DNA from: Thiotrichaceae bacterium
GTDB lineage: Bacteria; Pseudomonadota; Gammaproteobacteria; Thiotrichales; Thiotrichaceae
Direction of reading: 5' to 3'
Assembly: GCA_026991755.1 (NCBI GenBank)
Contig: JALXAX010000155.1
Location: 1 to 43,882, forward strand
Length of the DNA: 43,882 nucleotides
The notes under the pieces are model-generated. The model saw only the letters and a program-made list of their open reading frames with translations, ran no database searches and had not been told where the DNA came from. Below are positions 14,438 to 37,111 of this stretch, one piece after another. Every line of letters starts with the position of its first letter. Within the stretch, counting starts at the first letter, position 1. The position numbers were made by a program, and so were the translations under genes.

Positions 14438-15423
14438 GAGGTTTTACTCCCAGGTGGCGTGGTAATTTTCTTGGCGGTTGCATTGTCTTTTAAGCGTTGC
14501 GGGGTAGCCGCTTTTGACAAGGAAGCTAAAGCAACAAACCATGCTTTGGGCATATCCGTTGGCAAACCCACAGGAATTCCTGCAATTTTCGGGGTTTCAG
14601 TAAAGCTTTTGCGAGGTTCTTCAAACTCAGGTGCGGTGCAATTAATACAGGGGTAGCCGCCATCAAGGCAAGAGCCTTTGCCATTCCACGGGCGAATATT
14701 ACAGTCAGCCCGTGCTTGTGTGCCAATACAGCCTTTGTGTTCCATCATGCAACCCATATCACCCAGCACCTCTGCACTGGCTTTGTATTCATAGTATTCA
14801 TTTCGCGCACAGCCGTGATGAACAAGATGATCCGTATAGGCGCGTGGGCGATTCAGTTCATCAAGATGAGATAACGTGAGATCACCCATCGCTAGCTGTG
14901 ACAGCATATCCGTTACCCAATCAGGATGCGTTGGGCAACCTGCAATATTAATCACAGGAAATTGATGTGTAGACTGCCAATCTGCACCTAATAACCCACC
15001 TCTTTCCCTACCCTCATATTGCAAGCCACAAGCATCACCAGGATTACTACCTGCTGAGGTGATCCCTCCAAAAGCAGCGCAAGAGCCAATGGCAACCGTA
15101 TAATGAGCTTTTTTAGCAAGCTCTTCTAGCCATATCATCATGGATTTTCCTGTCCCTGCCAGCATGTGGAAACGACCTGTGCCGTTTGGACCACGCATCA
15201 CAGAGCCTTCTAAACATAAGGCATGTAAGGGGATAGTATCCGCAAGAATATCATTGAGCAGTGTGACAAATTCATCCGCAGAAGCTTCACTCAGTGAGGG
15301 ATGCCAAAGCATATTGATGTTTGCGCTTTTAAAACGCGTCATCACATCAGGCGATTCGGCATTGAGTAGCGACATACTACAGCCACCACAACCGCCCGAT
15401 TGTAACCAGAGGATATTAAACAT
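14434..15423 (-). CDS. hupU: H2-sensing [NiFe] hydrogenase, small subunit HupU/HoxB
   Basis: From the ATG at 15423 the product is 329 residues and starts MFNILWLQSGGCGGCSMSLL, with the first Fe-S cysteines at C12 and C15. No Tat signal precedes them, unlike HupS, as expected of the cytoplasmic sensor. Further cluster ligands lie in GSCAAFGG, AGCPTHPDW, HGCARNEYYEY and a Cys-rich stretch near NCTAPEFEEP. A longer open frame starts at 15456 but its first residues (MHATSL) come from a REP palindrome. The 15423 start has a GAAGG site about 10 bases upstream and overlaps the hupT stop by 8 bases, suggesting coupled translation. Confidence 0.92.
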   Translation of the reverse strand: MFNILWLQSGGCGGCSMSLLNAESPDVMTRFKSANINMLWHPSLSEASADEFVTLLNDILADTIPLHALCLEGSVMRGPNGTGRFHMLAGTGKSMMIWLEELAKKAHYTVAIGSCAAFGGITSAGSNPGDACGLQYEGRERGGLLGADWQSTHQFPVINIAGCPTHPDWVTDMLSQLAMGDLTLSHLDELNRPRAYTDHLVHHGCARNEYYEYKASAEVLGDMGCMMEHKGCIGTQARADCNIRPWNGKGSCLDGGYPCINCTAPEFEEPRKSFTETPKIAGIPVGLPTDMPKAWFVALASLSKAATPQRLKDNATAKKITTPPGSKTS

Positions 15424-16816
15424 GCTTATCAACCTTCGTAGAGACGTTGCATGCAACGTCTCTACCTACAGGCAGACTTAGCGTAAATACCGCTCCGCCG
15501 TCAGCATGATTTTCCACAAGGAGACTACCGTTACACTGTTCCGTTGCTAAGCCATAGCTGATATATAAACCTAAACCTGTACCTTTACCTACGGGTTTCG
15601 TAGTAAAAAAAGGATCGAATACAGAAAGCATATTTTCCTCAGAGATGCCAGAACCATTGTCTCTGATAACTATATCCACGCTCTCTTCTGCTTCGATTAG
15701 TGTTATCTCTAGTACAGCGTCTCCTTTGTGATCCTTGGCTTCAAGCGCATCTAGTGCATTTTGTAACAGGTTCATCAGTATCTGATGGATATAGCCCTCA
15801 TTAGCGGTAATATTCAGCGCTTCTGGCATTGAAGTAATCAATTTTGGTTTGTTGCGTGCCGAGTGCAAAACCCAATGAACAGCACTGTGAATAAGATTAA
15901 TTAAATTAAAGCTCGCCACCTCGTTCTGTTTAGGCGTAGAGAAGCGACGTAACTCTTCAACTATATTTTTGACGCGCTCTGATCCTTCTAAAGAACCTTC
16001 GAGCAGGGGTTTAATATCACCTAATATATGGTCAATTTTAAGCGTTTTTCTTAAATGATTACGCTCTTCAATGCTAATGTTGTTATGCACCCCGTCAAGG
16101 TATTCACGCATACGTTTTTCATAGCCTTGCAATACATACATATTACCAAAGACAAAACTAATCGGGTTATTCAGCTCGTGAGCCACACCTGCAATCAAAC
16201 GCCCCAGAGAAGCCATTTTTTCTGATTGGATCAGTTGTTGCTGAGTTGCTTTTAAGGCTTCGTGGGTTTCTTTTAATTGACGATAAGCACGGCGGATTTC
16301 ATCCAGAGGTCGACCTGTTAACACTGAGCCAAGTAAACGGCCTTTAACATCATAATGGGCTTTACAGGTAACTGCCATGGGAACTGAATCTGCATCGTGA
16401 TTGAGCATATCCACCTCGCAATCGACCAGATTTCCAGAACGAATTTTTTCAGGGAACTCATCAATCTGCGGAGCTGAACTAGCAGGAAAGAGACTACTCA
16501 GTGGCTCACCTTTAAGCGCTTCGCTAGTCTTGCCGATAAGGTTTTCGAGGGTACGATTAACGCGTTGAATCTTGCCGTTAATATCCGTCACAACCAATAC
16601 ATCATGCATGGAAGACAAGACACTTTCGATAAACTGTTGGGCTTGTTCTAATTCAGCGTTTTTCTCTTCCAACTCCACTTGAGAGTTGACTAAATCCGCA
16701 TAAATTTCATCCATGCGCTGAACCACTTCAACCCATGCGTCATCAGACATCGCGGGGTTGAGGTGCTGGGCATCCGGGACTTGGGAGGTTAATGATTGAG
16801 AGTGTTGGGTTGGCAT
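15416..16816 (-). CDS. hupT: Sensor histidine kinase HupT
   Basis: The 466-residue soluble kinase has an N-terminal coiled coil (about 35-65), a PAS domain (about 62-175), a second coiled coil, the phosphoacceptor box VAHELNNPIS (H213), the N box ILMNLLQNALDAL (near 347), DNGSGIS (387-392) and the F/G2 boxes FFTTKPVGKGTGLGL. In Rhodobacter and Ralstonia, HupT/HoxJ phosphorylates HupR/HoxA and is controlled by HupUV. The last 16 residues, from GRDVACNVST onward, are encoded by a REP palindrome (15438-15465) and the short sequence after it, so the natural end was probably near LSLPV. There is no clear ribosome binding site at 16816; Met23 is an alternative start. Confidence 0.9.
   Translation of the reverse strand: MPTQHSQSLTSQVPDAQHLNPAMSDDAWVEVVQRMDEIYADLVNSQVELEEKNAELEQAQQFIESVLSSMHDVLVVTDINGKIQRVNRTLENLIGKTSEALKGEPLSSLFPASSAPQIDEFPEKIRSGNLVDCEVDMLNHDADSVPMAVTCKAHYDVKGRLLGSVLTGRPLDEIRRAYRQLKETHEALKATQQQLIQSEKMASLGRLIAGVAHELNNPISFVFGNMYVLQGYEKRMREYLDGVHNNISIEERNHLRKTLKIDHILGDIKPLLEGSLEGSERVKNIVEELRRFSTPKQNEVASFNLINLIHSAVHWVLHSARNKPKLITSMPEALNITANEGYIHQILMNLLQNALDALEAKDHKGDAVLEITLIEAEESVDIVIRDNGSGISEENMLSVFDPFFTTKPVGKGTGLGLYISYGLATEQCNGSLLVENHADGGAVFTLSLPVGRDVACNVSTKVDKHV
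15438..15465. repeat. REP palindrome copy 1 (hupT 3' end / hupU leader)
   Basis: Perfect 28-bp palindrome with arms GTAGAGACGTTGCA and its complement. It lies within the 3' end of the hupT frame and just upstream of the hupU start, and the hupT frame stays open through it. Confidence 0.95.
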
Positions 16817-16845: not shown

Positions 16846-16873
16846 GTAGAGACGTAGCATGCTACGTCTCTAC
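16846..16873. repeat. REP palindrome copy 2, variant arm, upstream flank of the RAYT gene
   Basis: Perfect 28-bp palindrome with arm GTAGAGACGTAGCA, differing from the common arm at one base. It lies between hupT (start 16816) and the RAYT gene (start 16925). Confidence 0.95.
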
Positions 16874-16924: not shown

Positions 16925-17467
16925 ATGGATAATAATTTATATAAAAACAAGTATCGAACTCAATCTACTCGCCTCGCTTCATGGGATTATCGCTCAAACG
17001 CTGCTTATTTTATTACGATGTGTTCGCGTAATAAACAGCCTCTATTTGGTTCAGTGATTGATGGAAAAATGCAGTTATCATCCATCGGTGTATTAGCAGA
17101 TGTATGCTGGTACGAGATTAAAAATCACCATCATCATGTTTCATTGGGTGAATTTGTTGTTATGCCGAATCATGTGCACGGTGTATTGCTTTTGGATAAC
17201 CCCGTAGAGACGTTGCATGCAACGTCTCTACCAACGAGTGATAACAGAATGTCAGATATTTCCCCAAAAAAAGGTTCTGTATCCAGCATAATTCGTTCCT
17301 ATAAATCTGCCGTTACTCGACATGCTCATCGGCTAGGGTTTGAGTTCGCATGGCAACCTCGGTTTTATGATCACATTATTCGTAATGAGCGATCGCTTAC
17401 CCAGATACATGACTATATTTTAACTAACCCCCAGAAATGGGCAGATGATCGATTTTTCATTCAATAA
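16925..17467 (+). CDS. REP-associated tyrosine transposase (RAYT, TnpA_REP, Y1/HUH family)
   Basis: The 180-residue protein matches the Y1 transposase family: YFITMCSRNKQPLFG near the start, the HUH metal site MPNHVHGVLLL (H83, H85), and the catalytic Tyr126 in IIRSYKSAVTR, followed by FAWQPRFYDHIIRNE. RAYTs cut and move single-stranded REP hairpins, recognising a GTAG-like tetranucleotide 5' of the hairpin. Its plausible substrate is plain here: palindromes starting GTAG flank it on both sides and occur across the cluster. A complete REP copy lies in frame inside the gene and encodes residues 93-102 (ETLHATSL core) between the HUH site and the catalytic Tyr. It stands alone on the plus strand between hupT and hupR. 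Confidence 0.92.
   Translation: MDNNLYKNKYRTQSTRLASWDYRSNAAYFITMCSRNKQPLFGSVIDGKMQLSSIGVLADVCWYEIKNHHHHVSLGEFVVMPNHVHGVLLLDNPVETLHATSLPTSDNRMSDISPKKGSVSSIIRSYKSAVTRHAHRLGFEFAWQPRFYDHIIRNERSLTQIHDYILTNPQKWADDRFFIQ
17204..17231. repeat. REP palindrome copy 3, inside the RAYT coding sequence
   Basis: Perfect 28-bp palindrome of the common arm (GTAGAGACGTTGCA) within an intact reading frame, in a segment expected to be a variable loop of the transposase. Confidence 0.95.
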
Positions 17468-17474
17468 ATACATC

Positions 17475-17500
17475 GTAGAGACGCAGCATGCTACGTCTAC
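17475..17500. repeat. REP palindrome copy 4, variant, downstream flank of the RAYT gene
   Basis: A 26-bp copy (GTAGAGACGCAGCA with a shortened right arm GCTACGTCTAC). It lies just after the RAYT stop and reaches into the hupR 3' end. The hupR TAG stop (17499-17497) is part of this repeat. Confidence 0.9.
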
Positions 17501-18981
17501 GCACGATTAACAGGCAATTGCACCACTTCCTGATCGGCTTGTTCCAACCCGTATCGCTCCAGTTTGCTACGCAAGCCGACTCTCGACAGCCCTAGCTCCT
17601 CTGAAGCACGGGTTTTGTTCCAACGATGTCTAACCAGTGTTTCTTTGAGAATACGTGATTCCAGTTGTTCTATACGGCTTTTAAGGGTGGCTTGTGAGTC
17701 GCTGTTTACTAGCTTCATATCTTGTCGCATATCATCAGGGGTGGCGCGTAACACATGCGGGGAGATCAGGTTTGCTTCCAGCTTGTCATTTTGCGCCAAT
17801 ACCAGCATCCGCTTTATTTCGTTTTGTAACTCTCGCACATTGCCAGGCCATTGGTAATTTTGTAGGCATTCGATGGCTTCGGTGGTGATACCTTCGACAC
17901 GTTTGCCTAGCTCTCCCATGGTTTGTTCTAACAGGTAGGCCGTGAGATAGGGAATATCTTCCAGCCTGTCTCTAAGTGGAGGTAGTTTAATGGTGAAGGT
18001 TGCCAGTCGGTAAAAAAGGTCTTGACGGAAACGTCCCTGGCGCACTTCCTCCTGAAGGTCTCGATTGGTTGCGGCAATGATGCGTACATCAACGGGTCTG
18101 CGCTTATTACTTCCTAAAGGACGGATTTCTTTTTCTTGTAAAACACGCAAGAGTTTGAGCTGTAGCGCTGGGGTGATGTCACCGATTTCATCGAGAAAGA
18201 TCGTTCCTTCATCAGCACTTTCAAAAAGTCCTATGCGATCTTCAACCGCTCCTGTAAACGCACCACGTTTGTGTCCAAACAACTCGCTTTCCAGTAGTTC
18301 ATCAGGTAAAGCACCGCAGTTTTCGGCCACAAACGGTTCATTTTGGCGCAGGCTATTGTAATGTAAAGCTCGCGCACATAACTCCTTTCCTGTGCCTGAT
18401 TCCCCTGTGATTAATACACTGACATCAAACGGTGCGACTTGTTTCACGGTATCGCAGGTTTGGTTCATTATACTATCGGGGCTGCGAACGATACCTTCCC
18501 ATGTGTGATGGGTTTGCAGGACTTTGCGTTGTACGTCTATGGCTTCTTTGAGCGTTTTGGGCTGGAGCTTTAACTCAATAGATAAACGTTCATTTTTGCG
18601 GTGTAAATTAAATAACTCAACCGCATTTTTGAGCTTCAAAATCACATCATCGGGATGCCAGGGTTTGCTGATGTACTGGTAGATACCGCCTTTATTGATG
18701 GCATTAATAATATCTTCTGAGTCGGTATAGCCAGAAATAATCATGCGAATGGTTTCTGGCCAGCTTTCGCGGATTTGTTCACATAACTCCACACCTGTTA
18801 TCTCAGGCATTCGCTGGTCACACAGTACGACTTGTATCCACTCACGTTCCAAAATGACAAGCGCATCTTTGGCACTAATCGCCGTATGGACATCAAAATG
18901 CTCATGTAAAATACGCTCTAGCGTTTCGATAGAACGGGCTTCATCATCAATGATCAGAATGCTGGGGAGTGGTTTGCTCAT
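17497..18981 (-). CDS. hupR: NtrC-family response regulator HupR/HoxA
   Basis: The 494-residue protein has a receiver domain with ILIIDDE and phosphoacceptor D55 (VVLCDQRMPE), K105 in YISKP, and a sigma-54 AAA+ domain with Walker A GESGTGKE (193-200) and an intact GAFTGA loop (240-245). A Fis-type helix-turn-helix follows (RHRWNKTRASEELGLSRVGL). Intact GAFTGA means it can contact sigma-54, which agrees with the -24/-12 promoter before hupS. HupR/HoxA activates hydrogenase operons under HupT control, often when unphosphorylated. The gene follows hypB by 34 bases. Its stop codon is supplied by a REP element. Confidence 0.93.
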   Translation of the reverse strand: MSKPLPSILIIDDEARSIETLERILHEHFDVHTAISAKDALVILEREWIQVVLCDQRMPEITGVELCEQIRESWPETIRMIISGYTDSEDIINAINKGGIYQYISKPWHPDDVILKLKNAVELFNLHRKNERLSIELKLQPKTLKEAIDVQRKVLQTHHTWEGIVRSPDSIMNQTCDTVKQVAPFDVSVLITGESGTGKELCARALHYNSLRQNEPFVAENCGALPDELLESELFGHKRGAFTGAVEDRIGLFESADEGTIFLDEIGDITPALQLKLLRVLQEKEIRPLGSNKRRPVDVRIIAATNRDLQEEVRQGRFRQDLFYRLATFTIKLPPLRDRLEDIPYLTAYLLEQTMGELGKRVEGITTEAIECLQNYQWPGNVRELQNEIKRMLVLAQNDKLEANLISPHVLRATPDDMRQDMKLVNSDSQATLKSRIEQLESRILKETLVRHRWNKTRASEELGLSRVGLRSKLERYGLEQADQEVVQLPVNRA

Positions 18982-19988: not shown

Positions 19989-20016
19989 GTAGAGACGTTG
20001 CATGCAACGTCTCTAC
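19989..20016. repeat. REP palindrome copy 5 (hypA-hypB gap)
   Basis: Perfect 28-bp common-arm palindrome (GTAGAGACGTTGCA), 37 bases upstream of hypB on the transcribed strand. Confidence 0.95.
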
Positions 20017-22476: not shown

Positions 22477-22504
22477 GTAGAGACGTTGCATGCAACGTCT
22501 CTAC
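22477..22504. repeat. REP palindrome copy 6 (hupI-hupJ junction)
   Basis: Perfect 28-bp common-arm palindrome between the hupI stop and the hupJ start. It supplies an in-frame ATG that could extend HupJ. Confidence 0.95.
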
Positions 22505-22814: not shown

Positions 22815-22842
22815 GTAGAGACGTTGCATGCAACGTCTCTAC
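22815..22842. repeat. REP palindrome copy 7 (hupH-hupI gap)
   Basis: Perfect 28-bp common-arm palindrome, 7 bases after the hupH stop codon on the transcribed strand. Confidence 0.95.
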
Positions 22843-25296: not shown

Positions 25297-25430
25297 AGAA
25301 ATGCTCATTAAAAAGGGAAACCAGCTATTAGTGTAATATAGTATTACAGTTTTTATAATAAGTGAAATATTAGTTTCCGTTATAGCTTTTCTTGAGGCTG
25401 ATGTGGGGATACTGGGGGCGTAATGATGAT

Positions 25431-25447
25431 GCATGCAACGTCTCTAC
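25431..25447. repeat. REP half-copy (copy 8)
   Basis: GCATGCAACGTCTCTAC matches the right half of the common palindrome; the left arm is replaced by unrelated sequence. It lies in the hupD leader region. Confidence 0.8.
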
Positions 25448-25811: not shown

Positions 25812-25839
25812 GTAGAGACGTTGCATGCAACGTCTCTAC
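25812..25839. repeat. REP palindrome copy 9 (DUF3144-like/hupS divergent region)
   Basis: Perfect 28-bp common-arm palindrome, 35 bases upstream of the DUF3144-like start and about 90 bases from the FNR-type box. Confidence 0.95.
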
Positions 25840-30010: not shown

Positions 30011-30038
30011 GTAGAGACGTTGCATGCAAGGTCTCTAC
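30011..30038. repeat. REP palindrome copy 10 (after hupC)
   Basis: A 28-bp common-arm copy with one mismatch (CAAGGTC in place of CAACGTC), 15 bases after the hupC stop. Confidence 0.92.
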
Positions 30039-31705: not shown

Positions 31706-31733
31706 GTAGAGGCGTTGCATGCAACGTCTCTAC
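31706..31733. repeat. REP palindrome copy 11 (after vapC)
   Basis: A 28-bp common-arm copy with one base change in the left arm (GTAGAGGCGTTGCA). Confidence 0.93.
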
Positions 31734-35596: not shown

Positions 35597-35624
35597 GTAG
35601 AGACGTTGCATGCAACGTCTCTAC
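35597..35624. repeat. REP palindrome copy 12 (SIS gene-hypD gap)
   Basis: Perfect 28-bp common-arm palindrome, 28 bases after the SIS-gene stop. Confidence 0.95.
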
Positions 35625-37083: not shown

Positions 37084-37111
37084 GTGGAGGCGTAGCATGC
37101 TACGCCTCTAC
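37084..37111. repeat. REP palindrome copy 13, variant (hypD-hypE gap)
   Basis: A 28-bp copy with arms GTGGAGGCGTAGCA and TGCTACGCCTCTAC. It carries the GTAGC centre of the copies flanking the RAYT gene rather than the common GTTGC centre. It creates an upstream in-frame extension of hypE. Confidence 0.9.

Follow-up and report, generated by a model that had tools for sequence, protein, structure and literature searches.

An in-frame palindrome inside a RAYT gene is very probably the cognate REP of the encoded enzyme

The window, i.e., the whole stretch of DNA analysed here (43,882 nucleotides), contains an intact RAYT/TnpA_REP gene whose product is 180 amino acids long (Table 1). This identity, already put forward in the original prediction, is supported by a sequence-profile match to E. 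coli TnpA_REP and by the predicted fold, which matches the structure of the E. coli enzyme with its REP hairpin (4ER8) with a Z-score of 13.3; the same fold search also matches IS608/ISDra2. The sole family matched by the protein is NCBIfam NF047646, REP_Tyr_transpos (E = 3.2e-15, 56.3 bits, below the curated cut-off of 80 bits, which is a threshold of the model and not a biological trait), and a Pfam search with the protein returned no match. The traits of a RAYT were found: a single HUH motif with one catalytic Tyr on a Y1 fold, GTAG-tagged REPs on both flanks of the gene that recur in the genome, and a low copy number, unlike that of an amplified insertion sequence. The source genome holds one close RAYT copy, the second match being 33% identical over a partial length. 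An insertion sequence of the IS200/IS605 type, expected to occur in multiple near-identical copies and often with tnpB, was considered and rejected: the gene is single copy, and of its neighbouring ORFs one reads as a histidine kinase and the other as a response regulator of the sigma-54 type.

Within this gene lies a double-foot REP, a perfect palindrome of 28 bp. As had been predicted, it is placed in frame between the HUH motif and the catalytic Tyr; it begins exactly at codon 94 and extends to codon 102, leaving the frame intact. Its core, TTGCATGCAA, is the commonest in the genome and differs from the flanking core, TAGCATGCTA. In the predicted structure, residues 94-102 are located between a strand (83-90) and a helix (119-136), in a loop modelled as disordered, with pLDDT <50 at residues 98-101. 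Such a site, disordered and lying after the HUH strand but before the putative recognition helix, suggests that the protein tolerates the insert.

Table 1. Features of the RAYT gene and REP copies in the window (strand "." for palindromes).
Feature	Position	Strand	Remarks
RAYT/TnpA_REP gene, 180 aa, intact	16925..17467	+	ORF, profile match, fold match
HUH motif H83-V84-H85	17171..17179	+	sequence
Internal double-foot REP, perfect 28-bp palindrome GTAGAGACGTTGCATGCAACGTCTCTAC	17204..17231	.	codes V94-L102 (VETLHATSL)
Codons R124, S125, S128, A129 (key RSSA), helix after loop	17294..17311	+	among the top co-varying with the internal REP core
W143-Q144-P145-R146	17351..17362	+	corresponds to W94, Q95 of E. 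coli TnpA_REP (GTAG-contacting region)
Catalytic Tyr Y164 (YILTNP)	17414..17416	+	sequence
REP with the exact internal-copy sequence	15438..15465	.	in frame, C-terminal end of histidine-kinase ORF
Upstream flanking REP	16846..16873	.	perfect palindrome, exact core TAGCATGCTA
Downstream flanking REP	17475..17502	.	core TAGCATGCTA inexact, 3' end degenerate, overlaps 3' end of response-regulator gene
REP copy	19989..20016	.	intergenic
REP copy	22477..22504	.	predicted start of minus-strand ORF
REP copy	22815..22842	.	intergenic
Degenerate REP	25420..25447	.	3 mismatches, predicted ORF start
REP copy	25812..25839	.	intergenic
REP copy	30011..30038	.	1 mismatch, intergenic
REP copy	31706..31733	.	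1 mismatch, intergenic
REP copy	35597..35624	.	intergenic
REP variant, core TAGCATGCTA	37084..37111	.	3 mismatches, predicted ORF start

The palindrome is of the enzyme's own kind, as it matches the other REPs of the locus and of the genome. The window contains 13 REP copies at ≤3 mismatches (0.00 expected from shuffles), and pattern searches of the 3.66-Mb genome yield about 49. Hence, 13 of the 49 copies are found in 1.2% of the genome, namely the 43.9-kb contig around the sole close RAYT copy (p = 1.9e-14). The copy at 15438-15465 gives the histidine-kinase ORF (15416-16816, minus strand) the tail GRDVACNVSTKVDKHV. Elsewhere, the REP family is represented by one poor copy in each of 2 out of 56 other relatives (from genus to class) and by none in the rest; therefore, it probably came with the RAYT gene or expanded after the arrival of the gene. 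An orthologous empty site was sought in sister genomes and none was found, the response-regulator homologues there being only 34-41% identical.

In-frame REPs of this kind are already on record. In-frame double-foot REPs, generally located between HuH and Y, have been described as a unique feature of TnpA_Y1 subclass 2.4, in which they belong to a variable insert between β3 and αC whose influence on the protein was suggested to be small (Quentin et al. 2018, PMC6006769). The gene of the window resembles this subclass in its HUH, Tyr and WQ motifs, its β3-αC insertion with the in-frame REP (residues 94-102), and its double-foot GTAG...CTAC REPs, on the flanks as well as inside the gene. The subclass motifs NH[IFV]H, WQ and YIxNNP read NHVH, WQ and YILTNP here, the last being one position off. 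Like subclass 2.4 (REPtron-type TnpA_REP), the relatives studied here are scattered over phyla, and we see no difference in kind. Thus, by motifs, loop insert and REP type, we assign the gene at 16925-17467 to subclass 2.4, as a further member with an already published layout. The match of recognition residues, the comparison of loop and flanks, and the sole-copy genomes described below are absent from the main text of that study (Quentin et al. 2018, PMC6006769).

Other systems share only part of these properties. E. coli TnpA_REP (subclass 2.2, 4ER8) has the same fold, the HUH motif, the GTAG-reading region WQPRF...H..R and a REP-reading helix, onto which residues 124-129 were mapped assuming an ungapped helix; however, it is only 22-27% identical, its HUH-to-W distance is 31 aa instead of 57, and its REPs, which contain a bulge, are imperfect palindromes. 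The Group 3 TnpA_REP proteins of Stenotrophomonas and Marinomonas are comparable in having perfect-palindrome REPs and enzyme-REP co-evolution, but their REPs are short and single-foot (Corneloup et al. 2021, PMC8266576). Rickettsia RPE and intragenic GTAG REPs likewise are short coding palindromes tolerated in frame, although they are spread over many host genes instead of having a fixed place in a single loop of their cognate transposase (Di Nocera et al. 2013, PMC3733652). The parts of these last two papers considered here make no mention of an internal REP in a transposase gene.

The relatives of the gene were collected in two steps. A first set of 80 loci from many phyla was obtained using as query peptide stretches that exclude the insert. 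Profile searches then added genomes with a match among Cyanobacteria (52/292), Bacteroidota (131/395) and Gammaproteobacteria (16/369), for a combined set of 258 non-redundant genes, reduced to 234 for positional counts by leaving out 24 genes lacking the anchors. Since the later search profile contained insert-bearing rows, the set free of this bias is that of the 80 loci. Among its 75 readable closest relatives, 58 (the window's copy counted) have a GTAG-type palindrome between the HUH and W motifs. Therefore, with respect to most close homologues, the 28-bp segment does not represent an insertion. The claim that the REP adds about nine residues holds in part: nine residues are encoded, but the linker to W is about equally long with and without a REP (66.5 and 64.5 aa, respectively).

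In the 258-gene set, 152 of the 160 coding palindromes fall between the HUH and W motifs, a region comprising 35% of the coding bases (codon-shuffle null, 1.8 in total), and 85 different cores occur. An internal palindrome is present in 146 of 234 genes; none was detected in the other 88, which indicates that it is not essential. The palindromes occupy frames 0, 1 and 2 in 105, 40 and 1 cases, respectively, frame 2 being the one that would read TAG in frame. A few relatives present arrangements worth recording. In L051, a second in-frame REP (CDS nt 142-169) sits in an earlier loop and has a core matching that of the usual-loop copy. L065 carries a regular tandem array of four identical REPs 3' of the RAYT gene (2080-2537; spacing 144, 143 and 143 bp). 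In L073, where the RAYT gene is apparently broken by a frameshift, the core AACGCATGCGTT is found in and upstream of the gene and GTTGCATGCAAC downstream. In genome G785, both exact copies of the core GCAGGGCTCTGC, on C139 and C170, are at RAYT matches (L053, L210).

One could suppose that the protein needs the peptide VETxHAxSL and that the palindrome is its by-product, all the more so as VET...SL recurs in many relatives. This is very improbable. The middle residues vary freely with the REP core, 40 genes use the second reading frame and encode RDxxxxVST instead, and the predicted structure shows no order in the loop. Furthermore, the codons are fixed at the DNA level: the stem codons of internal REPs stay REP-like, with GTA in 60 of 61 cases, GAG in 36 of 36 and CTA in 54 of 61.

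A more serious rival, and the main one, is a neutral process in which REPs are dropped preferentially near their own gene and, having no use, survive inside it only where the loop is floppy. It is close to the published view of a peripheral loop in which insertions may hardly affect the protein (Quentin et al. 2018, PMC6006769), and it agrees with the low-confidence loop in which the insert sits and with the clustering of REPs at the RAYT gene. In the relatives too, flank density drops steeply beyond the first 100 bp. The loop itself, however, is the richest place: in its approximately 117 bp we count 0.65 REPs per gene, as compared to 0.22 upstream and 0.20 downstream, each over the 100 bp next to the gene. 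This ordering is stable over thresholds and is preserved in the insert-independent set, although the excess is smaller there. Palindrome quality was also compared between the two kinds of copy, but is given no weight here, since internal and flanking REPs were detected at different thresholds. Neutral fall and survival predict at least as many REPs in the adjoining flanks, where an insertion should be tolerated equally well or better; hence, a loop about 2.6 times denser counts against it. The absence of synonymous drift in the stem codons is also unfavourable to it, although constant renewal could be an alternative cause.

Donor copies constitute a further difficulty for the neutral process. 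In at least eight genomes (L006, L026, L035, L041, L043, L045, L050 and L066), the internal REP is the sole exact copy of its core, as counted by a pattern exact on the outer bases in genomes that are partly drafts, so that no other intact same-core copy would be available as donor. In several further genomes, every copy of the core is located at the RAYT gene. The original prediction had named homologues with the same residues at this point but without REPs elsewhere as evidence against its reading, and these eight genomes correspond to that description in spirit, though not to the letter.

On the other hand, the neutral process finds some support in the turnover of both frame and presence on the tree of the relatives, from which the loop and the key residues were excluded. 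We count 44 changes of presence, 21 of frame (both minimum counts) and 86 of core, compared with shuffled means of 71, 35 and 121; the states are thus clustered, yet turning over. At least 44 changes of presence and 21 of frame imply that many copies were re-inserted or lost, beyond simple inheritance. The in-loop REP thus goes back neither to one ancient insertion nor to an accident peculiar to this gene; it is an element repeatedly renewed at one place and kept. As for the self-insertion tolerated by the protein that had originally been envisaged, the tolerance of the loop agrees with the low pLDDT, whereas a singular accident is contradicted by the 58 of 75 relatives and by the published trait; overall, that description is too weak.

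The internal REP also matches its enzyme. A REP with the same core occurs within 1.5 kb for 56 of the 146 internal-REP genes, as against 1-5 with shuffled partners. The similarity between internal REPs correlates with that of the helix (partial Mantel r = 0.289) and of the W loop (0.266), and not with that of the Tyr helix (-0.065), the correction being made by overall pairwise identity of the remaining protein and not by a full phylogenetic model. The best co-varying columns include helix positions 125, 129, 128 and 124 together with 145/146; P145 and R146, which adjoin W143 and Q144, co-vary with REP bases 5-8. The associations can be read as keys. In the helix, RSSA goes with GTTGCA or ACGGCA, GSSA mostly with xxGGCA, RGIG with GCAAAA/GCAATG, RWGR with GCGATT, and NASS with GCGCCA; in the W loop, PR goes with GTAG-AGAC and RN with GTAG-GGGC. 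The enzyme of the window combines RSSA with PR, and its internal REP reads GTAG-AGAC-GTTGCA.

The link between key and core persists at <45% protein identity (3.54 of 6, null maximum 2.37). As an independent check, the keys derived from internal REPs were applied to 34 genes devoid of one, and for 19 of them the flanking REPs were predicted at ≥5/6 (null mean 5.9, maximum 11). Between two genes that share 99% of the residues compared, a paired change leaves the palindrome intact, and the flanking copies of one gene retain the old core. Given this co-variation and the prediction of flanking REPs, sequence comparison indicates that enzyme and internal REP very probably form a cognate pair.

A cognate site inside the gene raises the question of autoregulation, in which the enzyme would repress its own synthesis by binding the REP within the gene, either in the DNA or in a hairpin of the mRNA. 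Besides the co-variation, the strong hairpin predicted for the RNA (12-bp stem; local fold z = -2.5) is in favour of it, and a built-in site would explain retention where genomic REPs are missing. Overall, we regard autoregulation as unlikely: the site lies mid-gene, away from the start, and known TnpA_REP enzymes use single-stranded DNA. Action through the mRNA, proposed in the original prediction, finds no support: a hairpin acting as RNA should tolerate G-U pairs, yet on the sense strand internal palindromes have 13 GT/TG mismatches and 26 AC/CA ones. Feedback through binding of the DNA of the gene is possible.

Our preferred reading, to which we give roughly an even chance (about 0.5), is that the in-frame palindrome is a retained and repeatedly renewed cognate REP, most likely serving as a linked substrate or seed. 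According to this proposal, the RAYT gene of the window, a member of TnpA_Y1 subclass 2.4, would hold its own cognate REP as a regular component, in the disordered loop that precedes the REP-reading helix. Helix residues 124, 125, 128 and 129 would read the core bases of the single-stranded REP hairpin, while the W-Q-P-R loop would read the bases on the GTAG side. A matched REP inside the gene would keep enzyme and substrate linked through transfer between genomes or loss of the flanks; the internal copy could seed or re-seed REPs around the gene, act as the seed upon entry into a new genome, and constitute a reserve once the flanking copies decay. We infer, from sequence patterns, both the binding and cleavage of the internal copy by the enzyme and linkage or seeding as the reason for its retention.

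These results bear on the spread of REPs and on the reasons for which RAYTs persist. In a gene carrying its own cognate site, the enzyme-substrate pair can be read from the sequence, with no guessing among genomic REPs, and the family table of about 140 pairs, with 63 distinct half-cores, suggests a simple and testable code of hairpin recognition. The presence of enzyme and substrate in one 0.6-kb package is a suggested reason why the subclass could jump between phyla. More tentatively, and with slightly less confidence than in the preferred reading, every internal-REP gene of the subclass may label itself, its REP being selected as substrate or seed and co-evolving with the four helix residues and the loop. 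If this is true, the protein-DNA recognition of single-strand transposases could be read from these genes as a code, and the pair would have a route by which to invade new genomes together.
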